Source: Candidatus Gallimonas gallistercoris (lineage in GTDB: Bacteria; Bacillota; Clostridia; Christensenellales; Borkfalkiaceae). From it: a stretch of 37,955 nt of DNA. The translations under genes and the position numbers were made by a program. Location: positions 1-37,955 of the forward strand of contig DXAJ01000030.1 in the NCBI GenBank assembly GCA_019117085.1, given 5' to 3'. The notes under the pieces are model-generated. The model saw only the letters and a list, made by a program, of their open reading frames with translations, ran no database searches and was not told the origin of the DNA. Positions 32,184-37,838 of the stretch are shown here, in pieces (within the stretch, counting starts at the first letter, position 1; each line of letters begins with the position of its first letter).

Positions 32184-33317
32184 ATGGCAGAAAAAAAGAA
32201 CTATTACGAAATTCTCGGCGTGAGCAAGAACGCGACGGAGGAGGAGATCAAGGCGGCGTATAAAAAGCTCGTCAAGCAGTATCACCCCGACCTTCACCCC
32301 AACGACAAGCTCGCCGCAGAGAAGTTCAAGGAGATCAACGAGGCGAACGAAGTGCTCTCCGATAAGCAGAAGCGCGCTGCCTACGACTATGAACAGGAGC
32401 ATCCGGGCATGGGCGGCATGGGCGGCGCAGGCTTCGGCGGCTTTGGCGGCGGGGGCTTCGGCGACATCTTCGACAGCATCTTCCAGGGCTTCGGCGGCAA
32501 TGCCTCCGTGCAGCGCGATACCTCGGGCGAGGACATCCAGCTCGAGATGCGCCTCTCCTTCATGGACGCCGCCAAGGGCTGCGTGAAGGAGATCAGCTAT
32601 TCGCGCAACGAGCCCTGCCCCACCTGCGGCGGCACGGGCGCGAAGGGCGGCACGGCATATAAAACGTGCTCCCGTTGCGGCGGCAAAGGGCAGGTCAGAT
32701 TCTCGCAGGATACCATGTTCGGTCGCATGGTGCGCGTGGGCGCCTGCCCCGACTGCGGCGGCAAGGGCAAGATCATCACCGATAAATGCCCCGACTGCAA
32801 GGGCAAGGGGTATGTGCGGAAGGAGACGAAGGTCTCGCTCTCCATCCCCGCGGGCGTCGACACCAACTCCTACATCCGCAAGCGCGGGTTCGGCCAGGCG
32901 AGCACGGAAGGGGGCCCTGCGGGCGATCTCATCGTCGTGTTCCGCGTCGAGCCGCACAAGATCTTCCGCCGCAAGAACATGGATCTTTACGTCGATCTTC
33001 CCATCCCGTTCGCGACGGCATGCCTCGGCGGCACGGTGAGAGTGCCCACGATCGACGACGCCTTCGACTATCCCATCCCCGAAGGCACGCAGACGGGCAC
33101 CACCTTCACCATCCGCGGCAAGGGCTTGAAGACGCGCAACGGCACGGGCAATCTCTATCTCAACGTCTTTGTCGAGGTGCCCACCCACCTCTCGCGCGAG
33201 CAGAAGCGCAAAGTGGAGGAAGCGGGGGCTTCCTGCGACGTCAGGCAGTACGACAAGGCGAAGAAGTATTCCGACGATATGTCCGCCCTCTACGGCACGG
33301 ACGCCTACAAAAACTGA
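32184..33317 (+). CDS. dnaJ: Chaperone DnaJ
   Basis: J domain with HPD, G/F-rich region, four CxxCxGxG-type zinc motifs. Confidence 0.98.
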
Positions 33318-33360
33318 ACTGTTTTTCGGGTCATCCGCCAAAAAGCGCGCCCGAAAAAAA

Positions 33361-33400
33361 GAGGAGCTCCTTCCGAAGCGAGGGGGCTCCTTAAATTTTA
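33361..33400 (+). terminator. Terminator after dnaJ
   Basis: GAGGAGCTCCTTC-cgaa-GCGAGGGGGCTCCTT (with G-U pairs) followed by AAATTTTA. Confidence 0.65.
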
Positions 33401-33409
33401 CGCTCCCTC

Positions 33410-33438
33410 TTGCAAACGGGCGGCGGACGTGTTACAAT
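33410..33438 (+). promoter_or_regulatory. Promoter for the PP-loop / flavodoxin-ferredoxin pair
   Basis: TTGCAA - 17 nt - TACAAT. Confidence 0.75.
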
Positions 33439-33456
33439 AGTGATAGGAGGGAAAGT

Positions 33457-34851
33457 ATGTATTGTTTGCAGAGCCGCTGGAAATTGGAAAACGGGAAACT
33501 TCGCTACTTCGGTCTTCGGAACAAGGAACGGATGTTTTGCAATACCGTCCGCCTCACAAAGAAGCAGCGGGCGGTCGTCTCCGCGCTCCCCAAAGAGCTG
33601 ACCGACGAAGAAAAACACGTTTTGGGCGCGCTTTTGGGGGATGCCGTCGTTGAGGAAGGAAAACTTCGGCGCATCCCCGGGAGCCTTGACGAGGCGCGCT
33701 TCTGCACGTCGTGCTGCGCCAACGACTATATTTTGCCCGGCCTTGAATTTGACGGGGAGGGGCGCTGTCCCATGTGCCAGACGGAGGAGGAGACGAGAGG
33801 GCTCAGAAGCGTTCTGCCCCTCGTCGAAGAGATCAAGCCCTCCAAGCGCTCCCGCTTCGACGTCGCCCTCTTCTATACGGGCGGCAAAGATTCCACCTTC
33901 CTTCTCTATTATCTTTCTAAGGTCAAGGGGCTGCGCGTCCTTGCGCTCACCTGGGAGATCCCCTTCCTCTCCGACAGCGCGAAGCAGAGCATCGAGGGGG
34001 CGAAAAAAGCCTTCCCCAAAGTGGAGTTCATCGTGCGCACCGTCGCCAAAGAGACGCTCGATAAAGTCTACCGCAAACTGTATTCGCTCATCGGCAGCAC
34101 CTGCGCCTGCCCTTCGCTTGCCTATCTTCTCTTTTATCCCGAGCTCGTCGCAAACCGCGTGCCTTACTTCATGGCGGGCAACGAACCCGTGCAGATGCTC
34201 GCCCTCTATTACAATCACATGGCGCCCAAGATCGCCTATTCCTTTGCCGAGAACAAGCTCCTCACCTTTCTTTTCAACGTGTGGCGCGTCCTCACGCTGC
34301 ACCCGCCCCTTCGCCAGGGGCAGATCCAGACGCTGATGACGATGAAACAGCTCGCCTACGGCGATAACTTCTTCAAAAAACACAGCGGCCTGCAGGGCGA
34401 GCCCGTGCACAGCGTCGTCGAAGCCATCCACGCGGCGCCCGAGCTGCTGCCGCCCTTGAAGCGCGCCATAAGAAGCTCTTCGTGGACGGGAAATATCCCT
34501 GCCTTCGTGCATCTCGATATGGACAAAGCCTGCGGGGGGACTTACGACTGGAACCGCATCAAAGACATCCTCGTCAAGGAATGCGGCTGGTCGGCGCCCG
34601 CGTCGAAGGACAAGGCGCTGCACACGAGCTGCAAAATAGAGCGCTGCAAGGATCACACGCAGTTCGTGCGCTACTACAACTGCGAGAGCACGCTCATCCC
34701 CTTCAGCGCGCTGGAGATCTCCCTTTCGAGCAAGCGCTGCGGCAGACCGAAAGAGGAAGTCATCGCCGAGATGAAGGAGTGCCTCGGCTTCTCCCTCGAA
34801 GAGATCCCCGAATGCGCCCTGATGCGGGAAGAGATCGGGGCGGAGCAATGA
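33457..34851 (+). CDS. PP-loop ATPase superfamily protein with N-terminal Cys4 zinc-ribbon-like motif (resembles N-acetyl sugar amidotransferase/PseA-like proteins)
   Basis: FYTGGKDSTFLLYYLSK PP-loop; CTSCCANDYILPGLEFDGEGRCPMCQ; C-terminal TYDWNRIKDILVKECGWSAP...HTSCKIERCKDH. SD AGGAGGGAAAGT-ATG. Confidence 0.85.
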   Translation: MYCLQSRWKLENGKLRYFGLRNKERMFCNTVRLTKKQRAVVSALPKELTDEEKHVLGALLGDAVVEEGKLRRIPGSLDEARFCTSCCANDYILPGLEFDGEGRCPMCQTEEETRGLRSVLPLVEEIKPSKRSRFDVALFYTGGKDSTFLLYYLSKVKGLRVLALTWEIPFLSDSAKQSIEGAKKAFPKVEFIVRTVAKETLDKVYRKLYSLIGSTCACPSLAYLLFYPELVANRVPYFMAGNEPVQMLALYYNHMAPKIAYSFAENKLLTFLFNVWRVLTLHPPLRQGQIQTLMTMKQLAYGDNFFKKHSGLQGEPVHSVVEAIHAAPELLPPLKRAIRSSSWTGNIPAFVHLDMDKACGGTYDWNRIKDILVKECGWSAPASKDKALHTSCKIERCKDHTQFVRYYNCESTLIPFSALEISLSSKRCGRPKEEVIAEMKECLGFSLEEIPECALMREEIGAEQ

Positions 34852-35528
34852 CGGACGTACGCTTTTTTACGGGGAGCGGCCATTCGGAAGCGATCGCCCG
34901 CGCCTGCGCCGGGGCAATGGGGGAGGCGGCGCTGCCGATGGGGGAGCCCCTTCGGGAGAACGCCGTGCTGCTGCTCGTCTTTCCCGTCTACTGCGAGCGC
35001 GTTCCCCCGCCCGTCGCCGCTTTTTTACGGACATGCGGGGCGGAGCGGGCGGCGTTTGTCGCTTGCTACGGCGGCATGAGCTATGGGCGCGCTCTGTACG
35101 ACGCGAAAACGCTCTTTCGGGGTACGGCCGTCGCCGCGGCATATGTTCCTGCCGAGCACGCCTATACGAAGGACGGCTTTCCCTTTGACGAGGCGGCGCT
35201 CGCGCCTCTTTTCGAGAAGGTGCGCTCGGGCGAGAGCTCGCCCGCCGTCATCCCGAAGGGGAAGCGGCATGTTTTTTCGGGCGCGCCCGCGCTGAGGAGC
35301 CGTCTCGGCGTGAAACTCGTGCGTTCTTCGCGCTGCAGCGGGTGCGGTGCGTGCGAGCGCGCCTGCCCCATGCACGCCATGCGCGCGGGGAAGCCGGACA
35401 GCCGCTGCATCCGCTGTCTGTGGTGCGTGCGGGTCTGCCCCGAGGGAGCGCTCTCCTTTCGCCTGAGCCCGCTTCTGAAGGTATATCTGCGGCGGCGGAG
35501 AACAAATGAAACGCGGCTCTTCCTATAA
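34848..35528 (+). CDS. Flavodoxin-like plus 2x[4Fe-4S] ferredoxin protein (EFR1-type architecture)
   Basis: MTDVRFFTGSGHSEAIARACAGAM flavodoxin-like N-terminus; CSGCGACERACPMHAM and CIRCLWCVRVCPEGA ferredoxin motifs; ATGA overlap with the PP-loop gene. Confidence 0.87.
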   Translation: MTDVRFFTGSGHSEAIARACAGAMGEAALPMGEPLRENAVLLLVFPVYCERVPPPVAAFLRTCGAERAAFVACYGGMSYGRALYDAKTLFRGTAVAAAYVPAEHAYTKDGFPFDEAALAPLFEKVRSGESSPAVIPKGKRHVFSGAPALRSRLGVKLVRSSRCSGCGACERACPMHAMRAGKPDSRCIRCLWCVRVCPEGALSFRLSPLLKVYLRRRRTNETRLFL

Positions 35529-35535
35529 AATAAAA

Positions 35536-35572
35536 CTTCCCGCAGGGAATGTGCCTGCGGGGAAACTTTTTT
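35536..35572. terminator. Bidirectional terminator between converging operons
   Basis: TTCCCGCAGG-gaatgtg-CCTGCGGGGAA with T-run on + and AT-rich TTTTATTTTA on -. Confidence 0.8.
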
Positions 35573-35598
35573 GTGTGCCGAACGAGCTTCGGCCGATC

Positions 35599-36996
35599 TT
35601 ACGCCTTGGAGCGGATGTATTCGTCCATCGCCTTTGCGGCGGTCTTGCCTGCGCCCATCGCGAGGATGACGGTCGCGGCGCCCGTCACGGCGTCGCCGCC
35701 CGCGTACACGCCGTCGAGCGACGTCTTGCCGTTTTCGTCGGCGACGATCTCCCCGCGCGGCTTGGTGTCGAGCCCCTGCGTCGTCTTTTTGAGGAGAGGA
35801 TTGGGCGAGGTGCCGAGCGCCATGATGACGCAGTCGACGTCCATCGTGAACTCGCTGCCCTTCTTTTCGATGGGGCGGCGGCGGCCCGAAGCGTCGGGTT
35901 CGCCCAGCTCCATCTCGATGCATCTAAGTCCCACGACGTTGTCGTCGCTGTCCGCGAGCACTTCGACGGGATTGGTGAGGAGCTTGAAGACGATCTCCTC
36001 TTCCTTGGCGTGCTCCACTTCCTCGCGGCGGGCGGGAAGCTCTGCCTCCGAGCGGCGGTAGACGATATACACGACGTCCGCTCCCAACCGCTTTGCCGAG
36101 CGCGCCGCGTCCATCGCGACGTTGCCGCCGCCCACGACGGCGACCTTCTTCGCGTGGAAGATGGGGGTCTCGCTGTCAGGTTCATACGCCTTCATGAGGT
36201 TGCTGCGGGTGAGGTATTCGTTGGCGGAAAAGACGCCTTTTGCGTTCTCCCCGGGGATGTTCATGAAGCGGGGAAGGCCCGCGCCCGTGCCGAGGAAGAC
36301 GGCTTCGAAGCCGAACTCTTCTTTGAGTTCGTCGATGGTGAGCACCTTACCGATGACCATGTCCGTCATCACCTTGACGCCGAGCGCTTTGAGATTATCC
36401 ACCTCTTTTTCGACGATGGCTTTGGGGAGACGGAATTCGGGGATGCCGTAGACGAGCACGCCGCCCGCAAGGTGCAGCGCTTCGAAGACGGTCACGTCGT
36501 AGCCGAGCTTTGCAAGATCGCCCGCGCAGGTGAGCCCCGCGGGGCCGGAGCCGACGATGGCGACCTTATGCCCGTTGGGAACGGGCTTTGCGGGGGCCTG
36601 AGTCGCATGGGAGTTGTGCCAATCGGCGACGAAGCGCTCGAGCCTGCCGATACCGACGGGCTCGCCCTTGATGCCGCGCGTGCACTTGCCTTCGCATTGC
36701 GTCTCCTGCGGGCACACCCTGCCGCAGACGGCGGGAAGGGAAGAGGTGCGGGCAATGACCTGATATGCCTCCTCGAATTTGCCCTCTGCGACGAGGGCGA
36801 TAAATTCGGGGATGGCGACGTTGACGGGGCAGCCCGCAACGCAGGGTTGATTTTTACAATTTAAGCAGCGTTTTGCCTCGTCGATCGCGGTCTCTTCGTC
36901 ATATCCGAGAGCGACTTCCTTGAAGTTTTTATTGCGGACGAGGGGATCCTGCGAGGGCATGGGGTGCTTCTTGGGATCCATATTGAATTTCGCCAT
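35599..36996 (-). CDS. nfnB: NfnB / glutamate synthase small subunit-like FAD/NADPH oxidoreductase
   Basis: CLNCKNQPCVAGCPVNVAIPEFI, CGRVCPQETQCEGKCTRG, VAIVGSGPAGLTCAGDLAKLG; adjacent to nfnA. Confidence 0.88.
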   Translation of the reverse strand: MAKFNMDPKKHPMPSQDPLVRNKNFKEVALGYDEETAIDEAKRCLNCKNQPCVAGCPVNVAIPEFIALVAEGKFEEAYQVIARTSSLPAVCGRVCPQETQCEGKCTRGIKGEPVGIGRLERFVADWHNSHATQAPAKPVPNGHKVAIVGSGPAGLTCAGDLAKLGYDVTVFEALHLAGGVLVYGIPEFRLPKAIVEKEVDNLKALGVKVMTDMVIGKVLTIDELKEEFGFEAVFLGTGAGLPRFMNIPGENAKGVFSANEYLTRSNLMKAYEPDSETPIFHAKKVAVVGGGNVAMDAARSAKRLGADVVYIVYRRSEAELPARREEVEHAKEEEIVFKLLTNPVEVLADSDDNVVGLRCIEMELGEPDASGRRRPIEKKGSEFTMDVDCVIMALGTSPNPLLKKTTQGLDTKPRGEIVADENGKTSLDGVYAGGDAVTGAATVILAMGAGKTAAKAMDEYIRSKA

Positions 36997-37838
36997 CAGT
37001 TTGCCTCCTTCTTGAAGAGATTGCAGTGCTTTTCGCGCGCTTTTGCCTCAAACTCTGCATAAGTGCGCGAGCGCTTCATCGCCTCGTCGAAGTCGACGAG
37101 GTGGGCGTCGAAGTCAGGCCCGTCCACGCAGGCGAACTTGGTCTCCCCGCCCACGGTGAGGCGGCAGCCGCCGCACATGCCCGTGCCGTCGATCATGATG
37201 GGGTTCATCGAAGCGATAGTGGGGATATTGTATTCCTTGGTCGCGAGGGCGACGAATTTCATCATGATGAGCGGGCCGATCGTGATCACGCGGTCGAATG
37301 TTTCGCCCGCTTCCAGCATGCGCTTCAAGGGGAGGGTGACGTTGCCCTTCTCGCCGTAGCTGCCGTCGTCCGTCATCATCACGAACTTGTCGGAAGCGGC
37401 GCGGAATTCGTCCTCCAAAATGACGAGATCCTTGCTTCTGAAGCCGACGATGGAGGTGACTTCGCAGCCCATCTCGTGCAGCTCTCTCACGACGGGCAGC
37501 GCGATGGCGCAGCCCACGCCGCCGCCCACGACGCACGCCTTTTTGATGCCCTCCACTTCGGTGGGGTTGCCCAAAGGCCCTACAAAGTCGGCGATGCACT
37601 CGCCTTCGTTGAGCGCGTTCAAGGTCATCGTCGCGCCGCCCACGACCTGGAAGATGATGGTAACGGCGCCCGTTTGCTTGTTGCAGCCCGCAACGGTGAG
37701 GGGGATGCGCTCTCCCCGCTCGTCCGCGCGGAGGATGATGAACTGCCCCGCGCGCGCCTTTCTTGCGACGAAGGGCGCCTCGATCTCCATCAGCGTGACG
37801 GTGGGATTGAGGCTTTTTTTCTTGAGAATGCGGTACAT
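36996..37838 (-). CDS. nfnA: NfnA / sulfide dehydrogenase-like ferredoxin-NADP+ reductase subunit
   Basis: ARAGQFIILR, GGGVGCAIALPVVREL, MIDGTGMCGGCRLTVGGETKFACVDGPDFDAHLVDFD; TGATG overlap with nfnB. Confidence 0.88.
   Translation of the reverse strand: MYRILKKKSLNPTVTLMEIEAPFVARKARAGQFIILRADERGERIPLTVAGCNKQTGAVTIIFQVVGGATMTLNALNEGECIADFVGPLGNPTEVEGIKKACVVGGGVGCAIALPVVRELHEMGCEVTSIVGFRSKDLVILEDEFRAASDKFVMMTDDGSYGEKGNVTLPLKRMLEAGETFDRVITIGPLIMMKFVALATKEYNIPTIASMNPIMIDGTGMCGGCRLTVGGETKFACVDGPDFDAHLVDFDEAMKRSRTYAEFEAKAREKHCNLFKKEAN

Follow-up and report, generated by a model that had tools for sequence, protein, structure and literature searches.

A conserved pair of a PP-loop enzyme and an EFR1-type electron carrier in Clostridia, with a possible role in ATP-dependent sulfur insertion

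The window (the whole stretch of 37,955 nucleotides that was analyzed) carries an overlapping gene pair that encodes a PP-loop ATPase-like enzyme and an EFR1-type flavodoxin-ferredoxin electron carrier, and the two proteins are very probably functional partners. The PP-loop protein represents a new subfamily within the known Fe-S PP-loop enzymes, marked by its built-in electron donor; on present evidence it is not a categorical novelty. Sulfur insertion is considered an evenly balanced assignment for its chemistry, and the complete scheme, in which an exchangeable unit of two genes carries out ATP-dependent sulfur insertion and EFR1 is the dedicated electron donor, is put forward tentatively, at slightly less than that. 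In the open-access literature that was searched, no paper on the PP-loop/EFR1 pair was found.

The features of the region are as follows (window coordinates).
33361..33392, no strand: 13-bp stem that follows dnaJ, a possible terminator upstream of the pair (-22.8 kcal/mol, z -3.8)
33410..33438, plus strand: sigma-70-type promoter-like site TTGCAA-17-TACAAT (match to the consensus only)
33457..34851, plus strand: gene of the PP-loop ATPase-like enzyme (ORF1), 464 aa, ATG start
33457..33693, plus strand: N-terminal domain of ~79 aa, confidently folded, not in related families
33703..33777, plus strand: tetracysteine C83xxC86-x17-C104xxC107, Zn-ribbon-like, invariant in 80/80 homologues
33874..33894, plus strand: PP-loop YTGGKDS (residues 140-146), ATP-binding by hhalign to relatives
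34102..34110, plus strand: C216-A-C218, aligned with the CxxC of Fe-S PP-loop enzymes, invariant in 80/80
34621..34647, plus strand: H389-T-S-C392-K-I-E-R-C397; in the alignment C392 falls on the third cluster cysteine in Fe-S PP-loop enzymes
34848..35528, plus strand: gene of the EFR1-type flavodoxin-ferredoxin electron carrier (ORF2), 226 aa
35334..35366, plus strand: first [4Fe-4S] motif C163xxCxxCxxxC173, cysteines invariant in the alignment
35406..35438, plus strand: second [4Fe-4S] motif C187xRCxxCxxxC197, cysteines invariant in the alignment
35537..35573, plus strand: intrinsic terminator, strong stem followed by T6 (z -4.3)

The coordinates that a sequence-only reading of this DNA had given for both genes, including the ATGA overlap at their junction, are right. 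ORF1 is preceded by a Shine-Dalgarno sequence (AGGAGGG, 33445-33451), and the pair occurs once in the genome. The same reading had described the pair as having its own promoter and as isolated by terminators. The promoter-like site is present, sites of this kind occurring with a mean of 0.4 per shuffle, and the downstream terminator, which also serves the convergent gene on the minus strand, is solid; the upstream terminator is only probable, its 13-bp stem lacking a clean U-tract on the plus strand. Control of the pair by a riboswitch was rejected on the basis of an Rfam search, which gave no riboswitch match near the operon.

Homologues were collected by a pattern-limited search of 84,980 species genomes, which yielded 142 relatives. 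The best 80 of these were kept; all carry titles of uncultured or metagenome-derived Clostridia or the like, many come from the gut or rumen of animals, and their average pairwise identity is 64%. An EFR1-type gene lies directly downstream in 78 of the 80 homologues (57-97% identical, other genomes), with the 4-base type of overlap in 53 of these 78. A mean identity of 64% over 80 homologues together with a partner kept in 78 indicates that the pairing is more than chance. The two members without an adjacent partner (L028:7001-8410 and L029:4029-5414) have other EFR1-like genes elsewhere in their genomes and are natural test cases for EFR1 substitution. No further gene recurs among the neighbours of the 80 loci, so a larger conserved cluster was rejected and the view of the pair as a self-contained two-gene redox/PP-loop unit stands.

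The adjacency also extends well beyond close relatives. A homologue that is ~43% identical (L008) and the related L094-L096 have an adjacent EFR1 gene on the opposite strand in convergent orientation, the two genes of L094-L096 lying tail to tail. The partners of this convergent lineage score 95-115 bits with the EFR1 profile of the family, against 63-73 bits for unrelated or generic EFR1s. Linkage that has survived a rearrangement carries more weight than conservation of an operon by itself. A mirror-tree correlation of r = 0.86 over 66 PP-loop/EFR1 pairs largely reflects shared inheritance. Within the convergent lineage, a gene for a Methyltransf_32/TRM13-like methyltransferase lies upstream of the EFR1 gene and shares an ATGA overlap with it (L128:5026-6905 and L130:5346-7225). 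This arrangement, seen in a single genus, might point to a function connected with RNA there.

The pair is an accessory, exchangeable module that comes and goes within the genus. Of 61 genomes sampled from the genus, only 8 have a full-length copy, in addition to one fragment with a stop. Full-length members occur in 6 of 391 genomes of the class sample (the window's own among them), and the 397 other genomes sampled from the phylum have none. One genus holds two very different versions, which are ~43% identical. The junction between dnaJ and the oxidoreductase gene (window 33317-35600) is a variable site: two relatives with 97-98% identical dnaJ (L186, L187) have other small genes in this gap, and the pair is missing. 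Carriage by a phage or plasmid was rejected, as neither a phage record nor a viral contig was found and the plasmid matches comprised one distant amidotransferase. A role as a defence system was rejected on the outcome of PADLOC, in which the PP-loop protein had no match and the partner matched only at the level of a ferredoxin. The convergent neighbour pair on the minus strand (35599-37838), which in sequence resembles a GltA/NfnB-like flavoprotein oxidoreductase and an FNR-like subunit, is a possible electron source; it is not conserved beside the PP-loop and EFR1 genes elsewhere.

The ORF2 protein consists of a flavodoxin-like N-terminal half followed by two CxxCxxCxxxC motifs (Pfam Fer4, E 3.6e-13; mean pLDDT of the AF2 model 94.4). 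With the NCBIfam model EFR1 (NF038196) it scores 69.8 bits, slightly below the cut-off of 75, and partners from the divergent clade score 85.5 and 90.3 bits. EFR1 proteins are generic carriers. The partner shares their flavodoxin-like domain and 2[4Fe-4S] domain, but it forms a subclade of its own that is tied to the PP-loop gene.

For the PP-loop protein, the Pfam search gave no match above threshold, and the sole notable NCBIfam match was to WbuX (TIGR03573), partial, with 53.8 bits against a curated cut-off of 203.2 bits and covering only residues 81-217, about half the length. True WbuX proteins reach 364-393 bits with this model and lack the second cysteine site (CxC/HTSC). For these reasons TIGR03573 was rejected as a functional label, and the resemblance to PseA/WbpG noted in the sequence-only reading is not supported as an indication of function. 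The PP-loop protein matched no characterized (curated) family. The best PDB fold matches of the AF2 model (mean pLDDT 89.8) were NASAT (8wex) in first place, followed by TtuA, YcfA, which we take to be the 6-thioguanine enzyme, and LarE. In the hhalign comparison with the CxxC/C type (E 3e-29), the CxxC is matched by C216 and C218 and the third cysteine by C392, a placement that MAFFT gave independently; against WbuX proper the E value was 8.5e-16, and those cysteines are missing from WbuX. Profile comparison, tree and fold place the protein beside the Fe-S-type PP-loop enzymes of the TtuA/TtcA, LarE and CtaC type.

Exactly eight cysteines are invariant in all 80 homologues (83, 86, 104, 107, 216, 218, 392 and 397), as is FYTGGKDS (residues 139-146) across the homologues. 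The "Fe-S/Zn" of the sequence-only reading is better split into two sites. The cysteines 83-107, including G102-R-C-P-M-C, are Zn-ribbon-like, and the features that define WbuX, the tetracysteine CXXCXn[GN]XCXXC and the PP-loop, are present; the equivalent tetracysteine of LpNASAT binds Zn (PMC10607449). The second set (C216, C218, C392 and C397), whose clustering is judged from the alignment, probably binds an Fe-S cluster, and the extra cysteines do fit an Fe-S PP-loop enzyme as had been supposed. The spacing at the cluster position is CxC instead of CxxC, and the fourth cysteine, C397 (residues 389-400: HTSCKIERCKDH), is specific to this family. The N-terminal ~79 aa, which the relatives lack, have no recognized homologue and may bind the substrate; a weak match to the ribosomal protein uS4 (E 0.05-0.07) was not accepted.

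A sister clade (L097, L119; local support 0.95) has YTGGKDSG, CAC and HTSC and lacks C397. Its members have no adjacent EFR1 and adjoin NRPS genes, as do most CtaC homologues (PMC6772006), and the genomes of both contain many condensation domains. Sister-clade PP-loop proteins at L135:5508-6743 and L136:4814-6040 adjoin NRPS genes, and these loci are candidate clusters for thioamidated nonribosomal peptides.

Among the known systems, CtaC-type thioamide synthetases (closthioamide) share with the PP-loop protein the PP-loop/AANH enzyme type, the origin in anaerobic Clostridia and, by alignment, cysteines at the positions of the Fe-S cysteines, and mutants of CtaC in C154, C157 and C284 show diminished activity (PMC6772006). 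Motif, position and setting would suggest the link to CtaC; the differences are the CxC with the extra C397 in place of CxxC/C, the additional N-terminal domain, the dedicated EFR1 partner and the absence of an NRPS condensation domain (PF00668) from nine host genomes. N-acetyl sugar amidotransferases (WbuX/WbpG/PseA, TIGR03573; 8wex, PMC10607449) share the tetracysteine and PP-loop architecture and the overall fold, but they lack the second cysteine site and use an ammonia source. The tRNA thiolases TtuA, TtcA and NcsA have the PP-loop fold and a [4Fe-4S] cluster at their CxxC and C, but the PP-loop protein has no significant sequence-family match to them and they are not known to have a partner ferredoxin. 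TtuA, the next fold match after NASAT, has N-terminal Zn-binding cysteines. LarE of Thermotoga maritima is likewise a PP-loop protein, but it has a cofactor as substrate and no dedicated donor, and it is not known to have the tetracysteine or the N-terminal domain. Its [4Fe-4S] cluster, held by three cysteines, is the proposed acceptor of persulfide sulfur from IscS; for generation of the [4Fe-5S] state from a persulfide, the authors state that the step "would presumably require additional reductant" (PMC9283937).

As this persulfide step presumably needs a reductant, for which a donor such as a flavodoxin-ferredoxin would serve, supplying the electrons is the job proposed here for EFR1, and the proposed order is adenylation, persulfide delivery, reduction by EFR1 and attack by sulfide. 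The PP-loop enzyme would adenylate the oxygen of a carbonyl or amide in its substrate, and an O2-labile [4Fe-4S] cluster comparable to that of TtuA, Thermotoga LarE and CtaC would sit on C216, C218 and C392, possibly also on C397. Sulfane sulfur would come from the persulfide of a cysteine desulfurase and be passed either to the cluster or to C397, electrons from EFR1 would pass via FMN and its two clusters and reduce the sulfane sulfur to a sulfide-level nucleophile, and the cluster-bound sulfide would displace AMP to give a C=S product. Adenylation of the oxygen and displacement of AMP by a nucleophile are established for PP-loop enzymes (PMC6772006).

The main misfit of the sulfur-insertion scheme is the fourth invariant cysteine, C397, together with the CxC spacing: if all four cysteines ligate the cluster, sulfide has no open iron site to bind. 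Against the scheme also stand the best single fold match of the predicted model (NASAT 8wex), which is an amidotransferase, and L028 and L029, which have no adjacent partner, though other EFR1s in their genomes. To our knowledge, TtuA, TtcA and CtaC are active in vitro when given sulfide, with no dedicated donor present.

As far as can be read from the sequence, C397 and the CxC spacing could instead belong to a fully ligated relay cluster that serves reductive chemistry. That the PP-loop activates a carbonyl and a four-cysteine [4Fe-4S] cluster fed by EFR1 then either reduces it or carries out reductive sulfur transfer is unlikely, with some weight left to it; if true, PP-loop activation and low-potential redox chemistry would be joined in one two-gene module. 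Deoxygenation of an adenylated amide, lactam or uracil-like oxygen by EFR1 electrons arriving via such a cluster is rather improbable. The four invariant cysteines including the family-specific C397 fit an electron relay, a two-domain donor with a flavin and two clusters is conserved with this PP-loop family, and the NRPS-linked sisters with three such cysteines have no adjacent EFR1; the characterized Fe-S PP-loop enzymes, however, insert sulfur, and we know of no PP-loop enzyme that uses hydride or electrons as nucleophile.

It is similarly doubtful that the role of EFR1 is limited to protecting or repairing the oxygen-labile cluster in an otherwise conventional thiolase, outside turnover. 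Such a role would suit anaerobic gut hosts and a generic carrier, L028 and L029 manage without an adjacent copy, and EFR1 is the less conserved partner (mean identity 41% vs 64%), yet the linkage is near-obligate here and no EFR1 adjoins the sister enzymes. Of comparably low probability is an amidotransferase of the WbpG/PseA/WbuX kind, with adenylation of an N-acetyl sugar or a similar substrate followed by addition of ammonia, and with EFR1 being incidental or serving elsewhere. The WbuX match, the NASAT fold and the fitting tetracysteine speak for it; against it are the short match far under the cut-off, the CxC/HTSC site that true WbuX proteins lack, the absence of any HisH-like ammonia donor or sugar genes conserved alongside at the 80 loci and the redox partner, which it leaves unexplained. 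It is very improbable that the enzyme modifies peptides in the manner of RiPP pathways, with a PqqD-like N-terminal domain as its recognition element: by eye the 79 aa show beta strands and then a winged-helix pattern, but hhalign against 33 PqqD domains scored no better than column-shuffled controls, for which reason the PqqD/RRE identity was rejected, and among the ORFs of at least 70 aa beside the pair, neither a small conserved one nor a RiPP gene was seen.

For sulfur insertion, a small metabolite, a cofactor, a peptide or an RNA are candidate substrates. An NRPS-tethered peptide is unlikely in these hosts because the nine carriers have no condensation domain, and this substrate was rejected; no thiotemplate genes are conserved adjacent to the pair at the 80 loci. 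Since closthioamide itself is made without an NRPS, a carrier-protein substrate keeps a small probability.

How the sulfide-level nucleophile arises in the cell is a general question for the Fe-S PP-loop enzymes that insert sulfur; in vitro work on them uses sulfide or excess thiol. With its own electron donor as a near-obligate neighbour, this subfamily would make the nucleophile-forming step directly testable with two proteins. A further implication would be that Clostridia of the gut and rumen contain an undescribed metabolite, peptide or RNA with a thio or other modification.
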